Part shown: positions 2,222 through 35,975 of the stretch, in pieces
Layout: each line of letters starts with the position of its first letter
Numbering within the stretch: the stretch's first letter is position 1
Origin: a bacterium
GTDB taxonomy: Bacteria; Campylobacterota; Campylobacteria; Campylobacterales; Sulfurimonadaceae
DNA: 57,173 nucleotides
Assembly (NCBI GenBank): GCA_018822665.1
Contig: JAHJJX010000018.1
Span: 1-57,173 of the forward strand
Reading direction: 5' to 3'
Position numbers and translations under genes: made by a program
Notes under the pieces: generated by a model
Told to the model about the DNA's origin: nothing
Seen by the model: only the letters and a program-made list of their open reading frames with translations
The model's database searches: none

Positions 2222-3498
2222 TGTATGATTTTTCTCAGTTTTTCAAAAATAGCAATAATCAAATCACAGAGGAGTTTATTAACAAATATACCTCGTACCT
2301 GAATATCTCGGATAAAGACAGTGTTTCCATCTTATCAAGCCATTACAAAAAAATACTAGAAGCTTTCAGCGCCCCTTTTGAGCAAGATGAACTTTTAGAA
2401 CTATTTAAAAATTTGGCTCAATATCAAGTTGCCATAGAAACACCTTATGTCATCATTACAAATGAAATTTATGGTCTTAAAAGCATCCTTTTATCTGAAA
2501 TAATCAACGGATCCTCAGGTCCTGACGTGATTGAATTTATATTGCTTTTTTCGAAAATCAACAATAAAATTGCGCATGTTTATTTACTTGAATATATAAA
2601 AAAGCTATCGTCTTTGAATGCTTTACGACTCAATTCAATTTCGGATTTGATTGAAAAAAATATCATTCAGCATTATGAATCGCATCTTCTATGGCTTACA
2701 AGTCTGGCAATATGTATGAGAGACAAGGAAGTGAATAATTTTCAATTAGACGAGAGCATGTGCAGTTTTGGACAATGGCTTCATAACGGTGCTAAAAAAA
2801 TTATACAAAATGACTTAAAATACAAAACATTAAATACGCTCCACAATAATTTACATGTTTTTGCAAAAAATATATTGGCACATCTCCATAACGATGAATA
2901 TCACATACTGCTCACCTATTTAGAAAAATGTGAGCTTTTATCACTGAGTATCGGCACGGAGCTCGCCCTCATAGACAACATAATAATGAATCAAAAAGTT
3001 ACAAAAGATCCACTCACAAATGCACTCGGCCGTGATGGACTGATTCCTGTATTTGAGAATCAATACGAGTTATCATTGGCAACAAGCAATCCCTTTGTTT
3101 TAGCGATATGCGATTTGGATTATTTTAAAAATGTGAATGATGTTTACGGGCATGTGGCAGGCGATGAGATATTAAAACTGTTTGTAAGAATCGTTAAAAA
3201 ATATATTCGTAATTCAGACTCAATTATCCGCTATGGCGGAGAAGAGTTTGTCATCGTCCTTCCGGCGGTAAAAAAAGCAAAAGGGCTGGATATTCTGGAG
3301 AAAATTCGTAAATGCTTTGAAAATACTCTTTTGGAGTATGAAGGCAATCATATAAAATCAACTGTTAGCATGGGCGTGATGGAGATTACGCCTGAATATT
3401 ACTACAAGAAAAGCTTCTTAAACGAATATATCAACATCGTAGATAAAAAGCTGTATTTGGCAAAAAACAGCGGCAGAAATAAAATAGAGGTGTATTAA
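2221..3498 (+). CDS. Diguanylate cyclase with CZB-like zinc-binding sensor
   Basis: Makes c-di-GMP from two GTP. The C-terminal GGDEF domain is intact, with the active-site motif GGEEF at residues 339-343 and the usual DLDYFKNVND segment near 298. Residues about 150-240 resemble the CZB (chemoreceptor zinc-binding) fold: His155 in HLLW, Cys181 in CSFGQW, and His208 or His212 in LHNNLH are candidate ligands. This architecture recalls E. coli DgcZ, whose CZB domain senses zinc. Residues 1-145 are helical and I do not recognise them. No membrane segment is visible, so it is cytoplasmic. It overlaps the DUF1538 gene by one base; AAGGA precedes the start. Confidence 0.82.
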   Translation: MYDFSQFFKNSNNQITEEFINKYTSYLNISDKDSVSILSSHYKKILEAFSAPFEQDELLELFKNLAQYQVAIETPYVIITNEIYGLKSILLSEIINGSSGPDVIEFILLFSKINNKIAHVYLLEYIKKLSSLNALRLNSISDLIEKNIIQHYESHLLWLTSLAICMRDKEVNNFQLDESMCSFGQWLHNGAKKIIQNDLKYKTLNTLHNNLHVFAKNILAHLHNDEYHILLTYLEKCELLSLSIGTELALIDNIIMNQKVTKDPLTNALGRDGLIPVFENQYELSLATSNPFVLAICDLDYFKNVNDVYGHVAGDEILKLFVRIVKKYIRNSDSIIRYGGEEFVIVLPAVKKAKGLDILEKIRKCFENTLLEYEGNHIKSTVSMGVMEITPEYYYKKSFLNEYINIVDKKLYLAKNSGRNKIEVY

Positions 3499-29614: not shown

Positions 29615-29668
29615 GTTATGGTTTGAATGAGAAAAAACAGCACGATAAATATAATTTTTTTACTTCTC

Positions 29669-29688
29669 CTTAACTATGCGTTAACGCA
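29669..29688 (+). promoter_or_regulatory. Putative response-regulator box upstream of the two-component operon
   Basis: CTTAACTATGCGTTAACGCA contains TTAAC twice with an 11-bp period (29670-29674 and 29681-29685), the layout bound by OmpR-type dimers. It also includes a 12-bp palindrome TGCGTTAACGCA. It lies just upstream of a TACTAT -10 box (29694-29699) and the ATG at 29709. A near-identical copy precedes the exporter operon at 31392-31411. Confidence 0.6.
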
Positions 29689-29708
29689 CATTTTACTATA
29701 CTTCATGC

Positions 29709-30362
29709 ATGTCAAGAATATTACTCTTAGAAGATGATGCCGTCTTATCTGAAACATTGGTTGAATTGCTAGAGAGTGAAAAGTTTGAAGTCATACATGC
29801 AAGTAATGGCGATATGGCGCTTGATGAGAGTTTTATACAACACTTTGACCTTTTACTTTTAGATGTAAACGTCCCGTTTTTAAACGGTTTTGAACTTCTT
29901 AAAAGTTTACGTGAGAGTGGTGACATGACTCCTGCTATTTTTATAACAGCCCTTAGCGATGTGGCTTCCCTCTCCCATGGTTTTGATATCGGAGCGGATG
30001 ACTACATCAAAAAACCATTTGATTTTGATGAACTATTAGTTCGCATACATGCGCTTCTTAGAAAATCGTATCACACGTATGCAAACGAAATTAAAGTGGA
30101 TAATTTTCGTTTTGTGATAGAAAAAGATGAGCTCTATCTTGGCGGTGATTTTATACCGCTTTCCCCTTATGAACTACAGATAACCAAGCTGCTTTTTCAA
30201 CATCTCAACAAAACACTCTTAAAAGAGCATCTCTTAGATAATCTCAATTCAGGCAAAGAGATGAGTGAAGGCGCACTAAGAGTTCATATCAATAAACTTC
30301 GTAAAGTCGGACTGCCGATTACGACCTTAAAAGGGATAGGATACCGTCTTGCATCGTCATGA
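29709..30362 (+). CDS. OmpR-family response regulator
   Basis: 217 aa. The receiver domain has the acidic pair Asp9-Asp10, phosphoacceptor Asp52 (LLLLDVNVP), Thr80 (FITA) and Lys102 (YIKKPFD). A winged-helix DNA-binding domain follows from about 125 to 215 (LSPYELQITKLLF, ALRVHINKLRKVG, LKGIGYRL). It probably binds the TTAAC repeats found before its own gene and before the exporter operon. The -10 box is only nine bases upstream of the ATG and no ribosome site is visible. The 3' end overlaps the kinase gene by 14 bases. Confidence 0.9.
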   Translation: MSRILLLEDDAVLSETLVELLESEKFEVIHASNGDMALDESFIQHFDLLLLDVNVPFLNGFELLKSLRESGDMTPAIFITALSDVASLSHGFDIGADDYIKKPFDFDELLVRIHALLRKSYHTYANEIKVDNFRFVIEKDELYLGGDFIPLSPYELQITKLLFQHLNKTLLKEHLLDNLNSGKEMSEGALRVHINKLRKVGLPITTLKGIGYRLASS

Positions 30363-31407
30363 GAAACTGGCTTTTTTAAAATTCTTTGTCACTTATTTTA
30401 TCAGTATCGCCATTTTCATTTTGTTTGCCGGTTTTTTTTATTTTTCAGAGGTAAGCAATCATCTCCTAAAAACGGAAGAATTCTCGCTTATTGAGTATGC
30501 GAGACATATCAAAATGGGAAATACTTCAGAAAATTTCAGCAATGATTATCATCATACTTTTATAAAAAGCGATACGCATATCGATATAAAAAACTTTACA
30601 ATAAATGACAATGAGTTTATAAAATTTCTTCCCATGAGAAATGATTTGTATTATCTAAAAGTTTTTAAATCAAAAAAAGATTTTACAAAAAATCTTTGGG
30701 GTCTTAAACAAAAAATTGTAGCCGGTCAAATACTGCTGCTTCTAATATTTGCATACATAAGCTACAGGTTGGCAAAAAATGCTCTCAAGCCGCTGCAAGA
30801 GAGTATTTTAACTCTTGATAAATTTGCAAAAGATTTAATCCATGACTTAAATACTCCCGTAACAGCGATAAAGTTAAACCTGAAACTGCTTGAGAAAATC
30901 TGGACTATCAAGGAAAACAATGCATTTATACGGCTTCAAAAAAGTGTCAATACTATCTCAGAACTCCATGAAAATTTAACAATTCTTTTACAAGAGGAAA
31001 CATTTCAGATGCAGCTTGCAAATGTATTTAACCTAGTCGAAGATGTGGTGCAAATACAAAAAACCATCTATCCGAATATAGATTTTAAAATTGAGAGCTC
31101 AAACTTCAAAGCCAAAATAAATCCACATGCCATGAAGCAGATACTCCAAAATATCATCTCAAATGCCTGCAAATACAACTCTCAAAACGGTTATGTAAAC
31201 ATCTATGCAAAGGAGAACTCTCTTTATATACAAGACAGCGGAAAAGGGATAAAAGAGCCGAGTAAGATTTTTGAACGCTCTTACAGCGGGGAGCACAGCA
31301 GCGGAATAGGTCTGGATATTGTCAAGAGGTTAGCAAACGCCATGAATATAAAAATTGAAGCAAAATCAAACACGCAAGGAACAGTATTTATCTTAACGAT
31401 GCGTTAA
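30349..31407 (+). CDS. Sensor histidine kinase
   Basis: 352 aa inner-membrane kinase. Two membrane helices (about 10-30 and 123-142) border a periplasmic sensor of roughly 90 residues. The phosphorylated histidine is His165 in DLIHDLNTPVTAIKL. The ATPase domain has an N box (QNIISNACKYNSQNG), G1 (IQDSGKGI) and G2 (SSGIGLDIVKRLA). I accept the TTG start at 30349, since the sequence MHRHEKLAFLKFF runs straight into the first helix and no in-frame ATG is near. It overlaps the regulator gene, so translation is coupled. The stop codon lies within the second TTAAC box. Confidence 0.88.
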   Translation: MHRHEKLAFLKFFVTYFISIAIFILFAGFFYFSEVSNHLLKTEEFSLIEYARHIKMGNTSENFSNDYHHTFIKSDTHIDIKNFTINDNEFIKFLPMRNDLYYLKVFKSKKDFTKNLWGLKQKIVAGQILLLLIFAYISYRLAKNALKPLQESILTLDKFAKDLIHDLNTPVTAIKLNLKLLEKIWTIKENNAFIRLQKSVNTISELHENLTILLQEETFQMQLANVFNLVEDVVQIQKTIYPNIDFKIESSNFKAKINPHAMKQILQNIISNACKYNSQNGYVNIYAKENSLYIQDSGKGIKEPSKIFERSYSGEHSSGIGLDIVKRLANAMNIKIEAKSNTQGTVFILTMR

Positions 31408-31411
31408 CACA
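31392..31411 (+). promoter_or_regulatory. Putative response-regulator box upstream of the exporter operon
   Basis: CTTAACGATGCGTTAACACA matches the box at 29669-29688 at 18 of 20 positions, including both TTAAC half-sites. It overlaps the kinase stop codon and lies about 40 bp before the EF-hand gene start, so it could drive the EF-hand/TolC/ABC exporter genes. Confidence 0.55.
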
Positions 31412-31448
31412 AACTATGGAACAATTCATAAAATACAAGGAGTTTAAG

Positions 31449-31757
31449 ATGAAACGTTTAACATTAGCAAGTTTAGTGATTGGCAGCGCATTGATAGCGG
31501 GAATGGGGTTTAATATGCCTTCTTACAGTGATTTTGACACTGACAAAAACGGTAAAATCACACAAACAGAGTTTGAAAATGCACAAAAGGCGCGTATGAC
31601 AAAGCAGGCAGAAGCCGGAAAAATGATGCGCAATGCAGGGAATGCTCCAACCTTTAAAAATATGGATACAAATAACGACGGTGTCATAGATACATCTGAG
31701 TTTAGTAAACATCAACAAGAACAAAGAGCAAAAATGGGTCAAAGCATCAATAAATAA
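31449..31757 (+). CDS. Exported EF-hand calcium-binding protein
   Basis: From the ATG at 31449 the protein is 102 aa. This start has a good ribosome site (AAGGAG) and gives a clean signal peptide (MKRLTLASLVIGSALIAGMG); an earlier in-frame ATG at 31416 does not. Two EF-hand loops are visible, DTDKNGKITQTE and DTNNDGVIDTSE, each with acidic residues at the calcium positions. It is presumably a periplasmic calcium or metal binder. It sits between a two-component system and a tripartite exporter, so it may be a sensor accessory or buffer (inference). Confidence 0.8.
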   Translation: MKRLTLASLVIGSALIAGMGFNMPSYSDFDTDKNGKITQTEFENAQKARMTKQAEAGKMMRNAGNAPTFKNMDTNNDGVIDTSEFSKHQQEQRAKMGQSINK

Positions 31758-31760
31758 AAA

Positions 31761-33005
31761 ATGAAAAAAATCACTTTATTTATCTCTGTGATGATTGGTA
31801 TCTTAAATGCACAACAGTTAAATTTAGATGAGTGTATTGACAAGGCACTAAAAACGCATCCTGATATTCAAAGATTTGTATTACAAGCTAAGTCGGGCAA
31901 AATCGGTGTAGATATTGCCCGTGCCGATTATCTCCCCCAGATTTCATTGAATGCTGAATATAATCCTACCAAAACGTATGCCTTAGCGGCTAATGGAGTT
32001 TTTAACACCATAAATAATAACGGTTGGCAAGCCGGAGCTACACTCAACCAAAAGATTTGGGATTTTTCAAAAACAACTTCAAATATAAAAGCACAGCAGT
32101 TGCAAGAGGATGCTTCAATATTTACTCTTGAAGATGCTAAGGCACTTCTGGCTTACAAAGTCAAACTGCAATATGAACTTATGGTTCTCCAAAGAGAGGC
32201 TATAAAAGTACGACAAAAAGATTTACATGCAAAAGAAGAACTGCACAAACAAGCCGAAGCTCTTGTAAAGCTTGGGATGAAAACAAATGCGGATGCAAGC
32301 CGTTTTTTATCATCTGTGTATATTGCAAAAGACAATCTTGCTATTGCACAGGCAAATTTTGCCAAAGCTAAAACTATTTTATCTTTATATATCAATGAGC
32401 CTATAAACATTGATGCAAAGCTTCAAGACACTCTCTCGGAGAGTAGCTGGTTAGAAGAAGATGAGCAAAATATATTACAAAATTCACATCTGCTTAAGAG
32501 TCTCAAAAAAAACATAAACAAAAGTGAATTTAGCTATAAGGCACTCAAAGCCTCCCATTACGGTTCAGTAGATGCCATGGCATCTTACACGCACCAAGAC
32601 ACTTTAAATGAATATGATTCCACTTTAGTAGGAATCACACTCAATATTCCCCTCTATAGCGGTGGTCGAACTTCTGCTTTGGTGCAACAGGCTGTTATAA
32701 ATAAACAGAATGCTGAACTTGAATACAACTCAAAAGAGTTGCTACTTAAAGAGGAGTTTGAGAGTTTATTGATTGATTTAAATCGATACAAACAAACTAT
32801 ACAAGCTAAAAAGTCTCAACTTCAAGCCGCGAATCAAACAAAAATAGTATCGGATGCAAGATACAAAGAAGGTCTTTCAACTTACATAGAAGTGTTGGAT
32901 GCCATTGCCCTTGTTTTGGATGCAGAACTTGGGCTGCTTCAGGCAAAGCATGAAAGAAGCGCCACAATCCATAGACTGGAATATTTGCAAGGAAAAATTA
33001 TATGA
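31761..33005 (+). CDS. TolC-family outer-membrane efflux protein
   Basis: 414 aa. A signal peptide (MKKITLFISVMIGILNAQ) precedes two outer-membrane efflux repeats rich in long helices (LNLDECIDKALKTHPDIQ, then YDSTLVGITLNIPLYSGGR). The length fits TolC-like channels. It overlaps the membrane-fusion gene by four bases (ATGA) and provides the outer-membrane exit for the exporter. It follows the EF-hand gene by three bases. Confidence 0.88.
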   Translation: MKKITLFISVMIGILNAQQLNLDECIDKALKTHPDIQRFVLQAKSGKIGVDIARADYLPQISLNAEYNPTKTYALAANGVFNTINNNGWQAGATLNQKIWDFSKTTSNIKAQQLQEDASIFTLEDAKALLAYKVKLQYELMVLQREAIKVRQKDLHAKEELHKQAEALVKLGMKTNADASRFLSSVYIAKDNLAIAQANFAKAKTILSLYINEPINIDAKLQDTLSESSWLEEDEQNILQNSHLLKSLKKNINKSEFSYKALKASHYGSVDAMASYTHQDTLNEYDSTLVGITLNIPLYSGGRTSALVQQAVINKQNAELEYNSKELLLKEEFESLLIDLNRYKQTIQAKKSQLQAANQTKIVSDARYKEGLSTYIEVLDAIALVLDAELGLLQAKHERSATIHRLEYLQGKII

Positions 33006-34144
33006 GAACCTCTATAAAATATAGTCTAGCCCTCACGGTTATAGCCGTCGTAGTTGGAGTTTTTTACTTAAAAGTTTATATTCCAAAGAGTACATTTACA
33101 ACACTAAAACCTACCCTTGGCGACCTTCAGGTGAGCGTAAAAGGGATTGGAAATGTCAGCGCTTTAAACATTTACTCCATCACTGCCCAAACCGGCGGAA
33201 AGATATTGGAGATTTTGGCGGATGATGGAAAGTGGGTTAAAAAAGATGATTTGCTTGTTGTCATGGATGGAGTTGATTTACCGCAACAACTCGAAGTAGC
33301 AAAAGCAAACTTCAGAAAATCACAGTTTGAAGAGATGGCATTACAAAGTGAGTTGAATAACCAAAAAGCTCAAAAAGCTCTGTTGCAAATTACCTATAAT
33401 CGTTACGCAAAACTTAAAGAACAAGGTTTCGCATCTGCGTCAGAATATGACAAAGCAAATACAGAGTTAAAAAGCATAGATGCGGGCATGCATGCTACTG
33501 CTTCGCGCATCGATTCAGCTAAGGCTGCTGTAGTTGTTGCTTCAAAAAATATAGATGCCCTAGAGGTGAAAATAGATAGGCTCAAAGTGTATGCGCCGGT
33601 TGATGGGTATGTCATATCTAAAGAGGCAGAAGTAGCACAAAATGTTCTTCCCTCCACTGCAATTTTAAAAATTGTTGACCCAACGACATTATGGGTACAG
33701 ACAAAAATAGATGAGCGAATCAGTGCACAAATAGAGCTAAATCAAAAAGCAACTATAACTCTTCGCTCAGAACCGGACAAAGTATATGAAGGAGTCGTGA
33801 AAAGAATTGGTGCTATGAGCGATAATGTAACACTTGAGCGAGAAATATATATAGCGTTTGAGCATATTCCAAAACCTTTTTACATAAATGAACAGGCAGA
33901 GGTAAATATTAATGTTAAGACATATACAAATATTATAAAAGTTCCCCTCAAAGTAATTGTAGAAAAAAATGCAAAAGTCGGCATGTGGATAATAAAGGAC
34001 GGTCATGCTCATTTTCTTGACATAGAAAAAATTGCGCAAAACGGGAGTGAAATCGCCATCTCAAACGGAGATGAAAATACTCAAATCATCATTCCGGACA
34101 CTGCTAAAAAACCACTCTCTGAGAATATGAAAATAAATTTATGA
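33002..34144 (+). CDS. Periplasmic membrane-fusion (adaptor) protein, MacA/HlyD-like
   Basis: 380 aa adaptor with an N-terminal membrane anchor (about 7-25). Lipoyl halves flank a coiled-coil hairpin: GKILEILADDGKWVKKDDLLVVMDG near 65, and LKVYAPVDGYVISKEAEVAQ near 200. A beta-barrel domain follows. It links the inner-membrane ABC permease to the TolC-like channel. Overlaps of four bases with both neighbours show tight translational coupling. One near copy of the dispersed 11-mer is at 33980-33990. Confidence 0.87.
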   Translation: MRTSIKYSLALTVIAVVVGVFYLKVYIPKSTFTTLKPTLGDLQVSVKGIGNVSALNIYSITAQTGGKILEILADDGKWVKKDDLLVVMDGVDLPQQLEVAKANFRKSQFEEMALQSELNNQKAQKALLQITYNRYAKLKEQGFASASEYDKANTELKSIDAGMHATASRIDSAKAAVVVASKNIDALEVKIDRLKVYAPVDGYVISKEAEVAQNVLPSTAILKIVDPTTLWVQTKIDERISAQIELNQKATITLRSEPDKVYEGVVKRIGAMSDNVTLEREIYIAFEHIPKPFYINEQAEVNINVKTYTNIIKVPLKVIVEKNAKVGMWIIKDGHAHFLDIEKIAQNGSEIAISNGDENTQIIIPDTAKKPLSENMKINL

Positions 34145-35286
34145 TAAATTTAGCCAAAGAAGATATCAAACACACCTTAGGAAAATTTATAGTAACTGCT
34201 ATGGGTGTTGGGATGCTGCTTGGAATTGTTCTCATTATGGTGGGAGTTTATCGCGGCATGATGGCGGATGCAGAGGTACTTCTTAACGACTTTAATGTTG
34301 ATTTATGGGTGGTTCAAGAAAATACATTAGGTCCTTTTGCAGAATCTTCGAGAGTACATGAGGATTTAAAATACACTTTAAAATCGATTCAAAGCATAGA
34401 TAAAAGTGAAGCTGTTACATTTCAAAATATGCAACTGCCTTTTGAGAATAAAAAGATAAGTGTTATGGCAGTCGGATTTGATGTTTATGGAGATATTAAT
34501 CCTATAAATCCTGCAAGACTTATAGAGGGACGGGTATTGGAAACTGACCATTATGAGATAGTCGTAACAGACAAAACAGGTTTTAAACTTCAAGATAAAA
34601 TAACACTTGGACGAAATATTTACACTGTTGTGGGATTGACTCATGGCACTGTCTCATCCGGCGGAGATTCGCTTGTCTATGTCAGCCTCAAAGATGCGCA
34701 AGAATTACAATTTTCTTACTCAAACAAAGAGATACAAAATGATAGAGCAAGAGGGATAATCAACAAAGATTCCCACATGGTAAATGCCATCATTGCTACA
34801 ACTAAAGCAGGATACAGTGTTGATAGTGTGGCTGAAGATATAAGAAAGTGGCAACATAAAAGCGTCTATACGCGAGAACAACAAAAAATAGTTTTGACAA
34901 AAAATGTTGTAGAAAAAGCCTCCAAACAAATAGGCATGTTCACCGCTATTTTAATCGGTGTTTCAACCATCATCATAGCCCTAATCATCTACACGATGAC
35001 CCTTGAAAAGATGAAAGAGATTTCTATTATGAAACTCATGGGGCTTCCAAACAGTATGATTATTAAGATGATTGTGGAAGAGACTTTACTGCTTGGTGTT
35101 TTGGCTTTTATATTTGGAAATATCTTTTCACATCTCATTGACGATAAGTTTCCAAAAAGAATTGTTTTAGAGATTCCGGATGCTTGGATGCTTTTTGGCG
35201 TAGTGATTATTGCTTCTATTTTTGCTTCATTTATCGGCGTAAAAAAAGTTATAAATGCAGATCCTACTGCAGCAATAGGTGGTTGA
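34141..35286 (+). CDS. ABC transporter permease, FtsX/MacB-like
   Basis: 381 aa inner-membrane permease. One helix near 17-37 is followed by a large periplasmic domain, then three helices at about 264-290, 315-335 and 345-370, the FtsX/MacB layout. The segment EKMKEISIMKLMGLPNSMII is the typical coupling region after the second helix. The nucleotide-binding domain is on the separate next gene, unlike E. coli MacB where it is fused. It is part of the TolC-adaptor-permease-ATPase set. Substrates of related systems include macrolides, peptides and lipoproteins; none can be assigned here. Confidence 0.86.
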   Translation: MINLAKEDIKHTLGKFIVTAMGVGMLLGIVLIMVGVYRGMMADAEVLLNDFNVDLWVVQENTLGPFAESSRVHEDLKYTLKSIQSIDKSEAVTFQNMQLPFENKKISVMAVGFDVYGDINPINPARLIEGRVLETDHYEIVVTDKTGFKLQDKITLGRNIYTVVGLTHGTVSSGGDSLVYVSLKDAQELQFSYSNKEIQNDRARGIINKDSHMVNAIIATTKAGYSVDSVAEDIRKWQHKSVYTREQQKIVLTKNVVEKASKQIGMFTAILIGVSTIIIALIIYTMTLEKMKEISIMKLMGLPNSMIIKMIVEETLLLGVLAFIFGNIFSHLIDDKFPKRIVLEIPDAWMLFGVVIIASIFASFIGVKKVINADPTAAIGG

Positions 35287-35288
35287 TT

Positions 35289-35975
35289 TTGAGTAGACAA
35301 GCGATAAAAGTCGAAAATCTTTATAAACATTTTGGAAAAGATGAAAGTTTTGTGGATGTCATACAAGATGCCTCATTTAGTATTAACAAGGGTGAGCTCG
35401 TGGCTCTAGTAGCCCCAAGCGGTGCCGGAAAAACAACACTTCTTCTAATGATAGGCTGTGTTGAAAATCCAAGCTCGGGTAAAATCTGGCTCGGCGATGA
35501 AAAAGTATATGATAACAAGTGGCTCACAGGTGAAACAAGAAAAATAAGAAGAGAAAAAATCGGCTTTATTTTTCAGTCGCACTACCTTATCCCATTTTTA
35601 AATATCATCGATAATCTCACCCTGCTTCCACAAACAAACGGCACCAGCGATAAGGTTGCACAAGCAAAAGCAAGAGAATTATTAAAATATTTTGAGATAT
35701 CTGATAAAGAGAAAGCTATGCCATCACAACTCTCAGGCGGACAAAACCAAAGAGTTGCAATTGCAAGAGCCTTGGCGAATAACCCCCAAATAATTCTAGC
35801 AGATGAACCAACAGCAGCATTAGATATGCAACGCTCGGTGGATGTCATAAAGATGCTAAAAAAAATAGCATTAGAACAAGATGTAGCCATAGTTATGGTA
35901 ACGCATGATGATAGAATGCTTCCATATTGCGATAAAATTATGAAGATAGAAAATAAAACTATAATTTTTGAATAA
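35289..35975 (+). CDS. ABC transporter ATP-binding protein (LolD/MacB type)
   Basis: 228 aa ATPase from the TTG at 35289. This start has AGGTGG six bases upstream; the open frame continues further back but there overlaps the permease gene in another frame. The Walker A motif is APSGAGKTT (42-50), followed by the Q-loop FIFQSHYLIPF, signature LSGGQNQRVAIARAL, Walker B IILADEPTAALD and the switch histidine in MVTHDD. It energises the neighbouring permease. The length and LolD-like sequence fit a separate-domain MacB-type exporter. Confidence 0.9.
   Translation: MSRQAIKVENLYKHFGKDESFVDVIQDASFSINKGELVALVAPSGAGKTTLLLMIGCVENPSSGKIWLGDEKVYDNKWLTGETRKIRREKIGFIFQSHYLIPFLNIIDNLTLLPQTNGTSDKVAQAKARELLKYFEISDKEKAMPSQLSGGQNQRVAIARALANNPQIILADEPTAALDMQRSVDVIKMLKKIALEQDVAIVMVTHDDRMLPYCDKIMKIENKTIIFE

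Follow-up and report, generated by a model that had tools for sequence, protein, structure and literature searches.

Two direct-repeat boxes around a two-component system of a Sulfurimonas-type bacterium are very probably binding sites of the neighbouring regulator, which seems to activate its own gene and a pump-like exporter

The window, by which we mean the whole analysed stretch of 57,173 nucleotides, was assigned to a Sulfurimonas-type bacterium on the basis of its nearest named relative, and carries a two-component system followed by an exporter operon, with all the window genes and sites described below on the forward strand. The first gene (29709..30362) encodes a response regulator (RR) of 217 residues, whose receiver and winged-helix domains (Pfam Response_reg and Trans_reg_C, both above the gathering score) place it in the OmpR/PhoB family. 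It is overlapped by the gene for a sensor histidine kinase of 352 residues (30349..31407), which contains a HATPase_c domain, a HisKA domain scoring just below the gathering threshold and the motif HDLNTP. Next come a small EF-hand protein of 102 residues (31449..31757), judged by eye to be probably exported and preceded by AAGGAG at 31437-31442, a TolC-family outer membrane channel (31761..33005; Pfam OEP), a periplasmic adaptor of the MacA/HlyD type (33002..34144; RND_mfp above and MacA below the cut-off), a MacB-like permease without an ATPase domain of its own (34141..35286; MacB_PCD and FtsX) and a separate exporter ABC ATPase (35286..35975, with an unsure exact start). The combination of TolC, MacA-like adaptor and MacB_PCD/FtsX permease resembles the MacAB-TolC and DevBCA-type exporters, and none of the equivalog cut-offs shown for the exporter proteins was reached. 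In MacB the permease is fused to the ATPase, whereas in the window the two are separate genes, as in DevBCA and LolCDE, where the ATPase is likewise a separate protein.

The two-component genes are associated with a pair of 20-bp boxes, operator A, CTTAACTATGCGTTAACGCA (29669-29688), which precedes the RR gene, and operator B, CTTAACGATGCGTTAACACA (31392-31411), at the end of the kinase gene. The initial annotation had drawn attention to this pair, and its positions, the identity at 18 of 20 positions and the spacing of 11 bp between half-site starts were all reproduced. Taken as an 11-bp direct repeat, operator A occupies 29669..29690, with TTAAC half-sites at 29670-29674 and 29681-29685, and operator B occupies 31392..31413, with half-sites at 31393-31397 and 31404-31408, the TAA within the latter (31405-31407) being the stop codon of the kinase. 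Box B had also been described as partly coding, and it does span the last four codons of the kinase together with the stop (TTA ACG ATG CGT TAA). The sequence GTTAAC lends the boxes a palindromic look; many relatives have CTAAY as the second half, and a direct repeat fits better than an inverted one.

When up to three mismatches are allowed, boxes A and B are the only matches in the window (shuffle mean 0.02, with none of 100 shuffles containing two), and the strict pattern TTAACNNNGCGTTAAC is present in two copies in the whole genome (2,507,095 bases in 44 contigs), namely these same boxes, with no copy for the reversed control. Looser patterns occur at chance level: with one mismatch, TTAAC-N6-TTAAC is found 16 times in the window against 8.8 expected, a count reached by 5 of 100 shuffles, and TTAACRWTNNNYTAAY is found 82 times in the genome, where its reversed control reaches 151. 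Taken by themselves, the half-sites are thus uninformative, and the signal is carried by the wider context and by conservation.

For the comparison with relatives we used the best 80 of 118 RR matches, from named genomes, and 30 loci kept from a search of 200 family genomes with the kinase. By eye, a motif can be recognized ahead of many RR genes, cTTAACrwTnnGYTAAYrcA, followed by a TATACT-like hexamer. A matrix covering the box only, and not the -10 element, was trained on 38 RR-upstream sites picked by TTAAC-N7-TAA, in 31 of which the first TTAAC precedes the RR start by 38 or 39 bp; the letters TTAAC and TAA are fixed in it by construction, and only the exporter and kinase-end sites constitute independent tests. 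At a score of at least 16 this matrix recovers 87 sites in 94 non-redundant related loci (952,388 bases), 85 of them on the strand of the RR, against 1.3 on both strands in a Markov-1 control (mean of three replicates). Among the 83 distinct 40-mers, 36 lie before RR genes, 23 before genes for TolC, adaptor or EF-hand proteins, 14 at kinase ends and 10 elsewhere; the RR, exporter and kinase-end positions together account for 73 of 83. The operator consensus is an 11-bp direct repeat, mostly TTAAC-N6-YTAAY. Boxes scoring at least 16 are present in 37 of 82 distinct RR upstream regions, 32 of them 38-39 bp before the start, and in terms of RR identity they accompany 35 of 55 regulators at 60% or more against 2 of 27 below 60%; the RR is less than 60% identical in 25 of the 45 regions without such a box and not so in the other 20. 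This conservation beyond the organism's own genome supports the earlier proposal that a putative OmpR-type direct-repeat operator is common to the RR gene and the exporter operon.

The placement of operator B at a stop codon recurs among the relatives. Of 84 distinct kinase 3' ends, 18 (score at least 12, the window's included) use the TAA of the second half-site as their stop codon, and in these 18 the first half-site begins 12 bases before the stop, with the pattern TTA ACn nTn nnn TAA being read as L-T-x-x-stop. A further 17 kinase ends have another box of at least 13 between -45 and +400 of the stop. In the closest relative, L003, whose RR is 90% identical, the box after the kinase is weak (10.3) and a good box (18.7) stands before the TolC gene. 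The occurrence of the box in exactly this frame in 18 kinases, taken with the L-T-L-P ending of some box-less kinases (L090, L091), might suggest that box B is a mere by-product of a conserved kinase C-terminus (L-T-x-R-stop) without a regulatory role. The same box and -10 element are also seen before exporters away from kinase ends, and the end of the second half-site and the -10 element lie outside the coding sequence, which renders such a by-product very improbable and bears out the earlier contention that the kinase protein alone does not account for the conservation of box B. In a separate locus, L009 (7014-8061; also in L110), kinase matches fall in two overlapping frames, indicating that the gene is split or frameshifted there.

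The boxes stand in a regular relation to a putative promoter. The RR-class sites (n=36) have a TATACT-like -10 element at offset 27-32 from the first TTAAC, and the 37 non-RR sites, which lie outside the training set, have a TATAAT-like -10 element at offset 26-31, with A27 in 97% and T31 in 95%; the T at 23 in 68% and the G at 24 in 49% of these sites resemble extended -10 elements. The repeat covers the -35 region, 26-27 bp before the -10 element, and the operator over -35, the constant distance to the -10 element and the poor -35 suggest the geometry of class-II activator sites. In the sites of PhoB, direct repeats 11 bp apart lie over -35, with about 28 bp from the repeat start to the -10 element. 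The window shares this class-II geometry with the Pho box and differs from it in its half-site and targets, and its RR scores far below the NCBIfam PhoB cut-offs. The predicted -10 element of the RR promoter, TATACT (29697..29702), begins 27 bp downstream of the point where the first half-site of operator A starts. At the same distance from operator B lies AACAAT (31420..31425), a possible but weak -10 element of the exporter promoter; the other non-RR sites mostly have a TATAAT-like element at offset 26.

As the RR -10 element ends at 29702 and the ATG lies at 29709, a start 7 bp after the -10 element falls on the ATG, and the retention of this short distance in 32 of the 37 boxed RR upstream regions implies a leaderless RR mRNA, predicted to begin at or beside the start codon. 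A sigma-70-like pair with 10 of 12 matches at 29627-29655, just upstream of operator A, would, if real, give the RR a longer leader; the scan found nine such pairs against 9.0 in shuffles.

The same geometry bears on two alternative functions of the boxes. That the RR acts on them as a repressor, with negative autoregulation, is unlikely in view of the constant 26-27 bp between repeats and -10 element, a box geometry like that of class-II activator sites such as PhoB's, and a sigma-70 scan that lists no -35/-10 pair over operator A or B; on the other side, a protein bound at the boxes, which overlap the -35 region, could also act by blocking polymerase. ArsRS of Helicobacter pylori, described as negatively autoregulated in excerpts of PMC9449129, also counts for repression. 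If the element were instead part of a promoter for an alternative sigma factor, the constant distance to the -10 element would follow naturally. The 11-bp tandem repeat, the TATAAT-like -10 element and the TTCAC repeats that exporter operons with a different RR have near this position (see below) make a sigma-factor element scarcely credible.

The organism's own genome contains a paralogous RR, L170 (G000:C2, 14641-15261, minus strand), which is preceded by TTAAC-N6-CTAAC with TATAAT at offset 26 and an ATG a few bases on; its geometry is like that of the window RR, and its mRNA is possibly also leaderless. In L173, at about 3177-3210, three consecutive CTAAC half-sites spaced 11 bp apart are seen downstream of a paralogous RR.

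The relation between box and system was then compared across exporter operons. Of 200 family genomes, 99 gave a permease match at E up to 1e-60; 60 exporter upstream regions were taken and 58 scored, L226 (52 bp) being left out and L221 too short. The system was counted as present where the kinase gave an E-value below 1e-75, in genomes that are mostly drafts and with E-value cut-offs set by us. A TTAAC box of at least 11, a cut-off picked after the scores were seen, precedes 28 of 32 informative exporter operons with the kinase against 2 of 23 without it (G001 and G002); at a score of at least 13 the corresponding figures are 24 of 32 and 2 of 23. Three regions in which TolC is apparently lost at a contig end (L250, L266, L269) were dropped for the count of 28 of 32, and enter as negatives when the latter result is expressed as 24 of 35. 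No window-type RR at E up to 1e-60 was detected in any of the 23 exporter genomes without the kinase. The pattern T[TC]CAC-N6-T[TA]CAC lies within 250 bp upstream of TolC in 17 of the 23 operons without the system, as opposed to none of the 32 with it. In a tree of TolC and adaptor (57 rows) the 30 TTAAC rows and 17 TTCAC rows are divided by a single branch with support of 100/100. Since the exporter tree needs one change, the contrast between operons with and without the system may represent one event, and Fisher p-values therefore overstate independence; likewise, many independent operator swaps are not needed to explain the labels.

Three exporters stand apart. L242 (G001) and L244 (G002) have TTAAC boxes before the exporter in genomes in which the window-type system was not found, and another YTAAC-type regulator may act there. 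L222 (G171) belongs to the TTAAC branch, shows no window-type system in our searches and has TTCAC-N6-TTTAC at -61, perhaps reflecting a second, independent operator change.

Because the paralogue L170 also has TTAAC-N6-CTAAC before its RR, half-sites alone do not name the regulator. The main protein at the boxes might accordingly be a different OmpR-type regulator of the cell, for instance that of this sister system, with its similar half-sites and identical promoter geometry; loose half-site patterns are shared. However, the spacer of L170 differs from that of the window boxes, dozens of loci have the box next to its own RR and kinase, and only 2 of the 23 exporter operons where the system was not found carry it (one evolutionary split), all of which argues that binding mainly by another regulator is improbable.

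We consider it highly probable, from comparative sequence evidence, that the boxes are operators of the RR encoded between them and serve to activate both the RR gene and the exporter operon. What the comparison shows directly is that the operator is conserved, with its position, orientation and spacing to the -10 element, and that on one branch of the exporter tree it occurs together with the system. The kinase would phosphorylate the RR, which would bind TTAAC-N6-YTAAY over the -35 region as a head-to-tail dimer and recruit RNA polymerase to the -10 element 26-27 bp downstream. In this manner the RR would activate its own gene, giving a putative leaderless transcript, as well as the operon for the small exported protein and the TolC/MacA/MacB-like exporter, whose predicted operator overlaps the final codons and the stop codon of the kinase gene. 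Our guess at the signal, prompted by the exported targets, is envelope or periplasmic stress.

The extent of the regulon was explored with a profile, R1, built from 62 sites including both window sites (L069, L105 and L111 of 65 low-redundancy sites were left out) and searched in eight genomes, with 150 of 1834 first-look candidates being scored in the own genome. There the window sites, which are part of the model, give E-values of 6.5e-4 and 1.2e-3, and are followed by weak sites before a receptor-like ORF (0.035) and a small exported-looking protein (0.065) and at C14:3560 (0.075). In each of the other seven genomes, between 4 and 14 sites reach E up to 2. The first genes behind the sites of these seven include ones for TolC, NosL-type, haem-binding-type and small exported-looking proteins, with Pfam matches to NosL for L197, OEP for L203 and Haem_bd for the related L017 protein; in 24 inspected loci near the kinase the first gene encodes a cytochrome c, a haem-binding domain, an EF-hand protein, TolC, an adaptor or others (by Pfam for some). 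Deriving a genome-wide regulon from half-sites was abandoned, given chance-level counts at one mismatch and only weak own-genome additions from the profile. The regulon in the own genome appears small, the two window boxes being the only strong sites found. The common theme of the first genes across these loci is the periplasm and envelope and not calcium: the calcium link that had been suggested from the EF-hand gene is not sustained, as EF-hand relatives downstream of the kinase (tblastn, more than 60 bits) are confined to four distinct systems, those of the window, L003/L084, L051 and L089.

Two further groups of genes were encountered in this survey. NosL-type proteins lie behind TTAAC-N6-TTAAC boxes in four genomes (L197, L210, L215 and L218, with the Pfam match tested for L197), which possibly connects the wider regulon with copper or haem. 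Small exported-looking proteins rich in Q, K and G lie behind YTAAC-N6-CTAAC boxes (L198, L204, L209, L219); L204 and L209 have no Pfam match, and L209 sits after a paralogous kinase.

In 11 of 20 inspected regions without the system, an RR 42-46% identical to that of the window lies downstream of the exporter. These 11 form one clade (100/98), joined by L166 and L174 (98/93) and placed, with modest support (81/71), near the Campylobacter DccR candidates L144 and L145. L144, from a small genome, was assigned to DccR by gene order, as its gene comes after a CprRS-like pair and an ORF that by eye resembles HtrA. The Campylobacter locus numbers behind this assignment are those given in excerpts of PMC9449129. 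Across the 200 family genomes, the window-type RR is found in 59 (E up to 1e-60), the TTCAC-type RR in 22 (E up to 1e-80, a cut-off set after the list was seen) and both in one (G149).

The consensus of DccR is TTCAC-N6-TTCAC. The pattern TTCAC-N6-TTCAC[AT] occurs 21 times in six genomes against 14 for the reversed control, and is little above chance when taken alone. Of 14 sites inspected among the 21 (three genomes of L144's genus, G407, G399 and G332), 8 lie 58-64 bp before a small exported-looking protein and 6 do not. The DccRS system of Campylobacter jejuni resembles that of the window in having an OmpR-type RR of the same wider subfamily, a kinase with an H[DE]LNTP motif (by eye) and 11-bp direct-repeat sites, these 8 of 14, about 60 bp before small exported-looking proteins. 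In addition, excerpts of PMC11365321 tie the exporter MacABC (Cj0606-0608), along with Cj0200c, to the DccRS regulon. By operator position, the predicted targets in the window are the small exported protein and the TolC/MacA exporter genes. DccRS differs in its TTCAC half-site and recognition helix, as against the TTAAC/YTAAY half-sites and kinase-stop overlap of the window, whose own operators read TTAAC-N6-TTAAC and not TTCAC-N6-TTCAC. The window RR lies outside the DccR-candidate branch, in a clade of its own (32 and 13 rows), in two trees, neither of which supports it as a DccR orthologue. To judge from these sequence comparisons, the window system and the DccRS kind are sisters that differ in operator code.

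A comparison of recognition helices in 34 chosen window-type and 11 TTCAC-type RRs identified five positions that distinguish the two groups: 188 is G in 34/34 versus M in 11/11, 192 is V in 34/34 versus T in 11/11, 193 is H in 30/34 versus Y in 11/11, 195 is N in 29/34 versus K in 11/11, and 196 is K in 28/34 versus N in 10/11. At these positions the DccR candidates have L, A, Y, K and N (L144) and M, V, Y, A and E (L145), and further fixed differences between the window-type and TTCAC-type RRs lie outside the helix. Residues 188, 192, 193, 195 and 196 are hence candidates for the choice between TTAAC and TTCAC. As a more comprehensive scenario, which we advance tentatively as a serious possibility, one exporter family of Sulfurimonas and its relatives might be split between two sister two-component systems with operator codes of their own (TTAAC-N6-YTAAY, and the DccR-like TTCAC-N6-TTCAC) and near-identical promoter geometry. 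Regulator, operator and exporter would have stayed matched since one ancestral handover, a few of the five helix residues would set A versus C at the third base of the half-site, and in the window's branch the operator could double as the kinase stop, with the regulator mRNA starting at its own ATG. Our confidence in this scenario is held down by the count of 14 for the reversed TTCAC control and by L145, which is unlike the TTCAC group at three of the five helix letters.

The orphan regulator HsrA (HP1043) of Helicobacter pylori has the motif TTAAG-N6-TTAAG, which resembles the window operators in its tandem 11-bp repeats and similar letters. It functions without a kinase, whereas the kinase gene of the window overlaps the RR gene. 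The HP1043 literature that we consulted did not confirm the TTAAG-N6-TTAAG motif, and, like a RacR paper and a secretion review, contained nothing on the motif of the window; nor was a predicted operator, promoter or target for a window-type Sulfurimonas system found in the open-licence full-text literature. The present analysis provides, for one Sulfurimonas two-component system, specific predictions of its operator, promoter geometry and target. Furthermore, the two systems form a natural pair of sister regulators whose promoters are related and whose half-sites differ by one base; with the few helix residues singled out above, the pair offers a clean example of how regulators of the OmpR family stay distinct.
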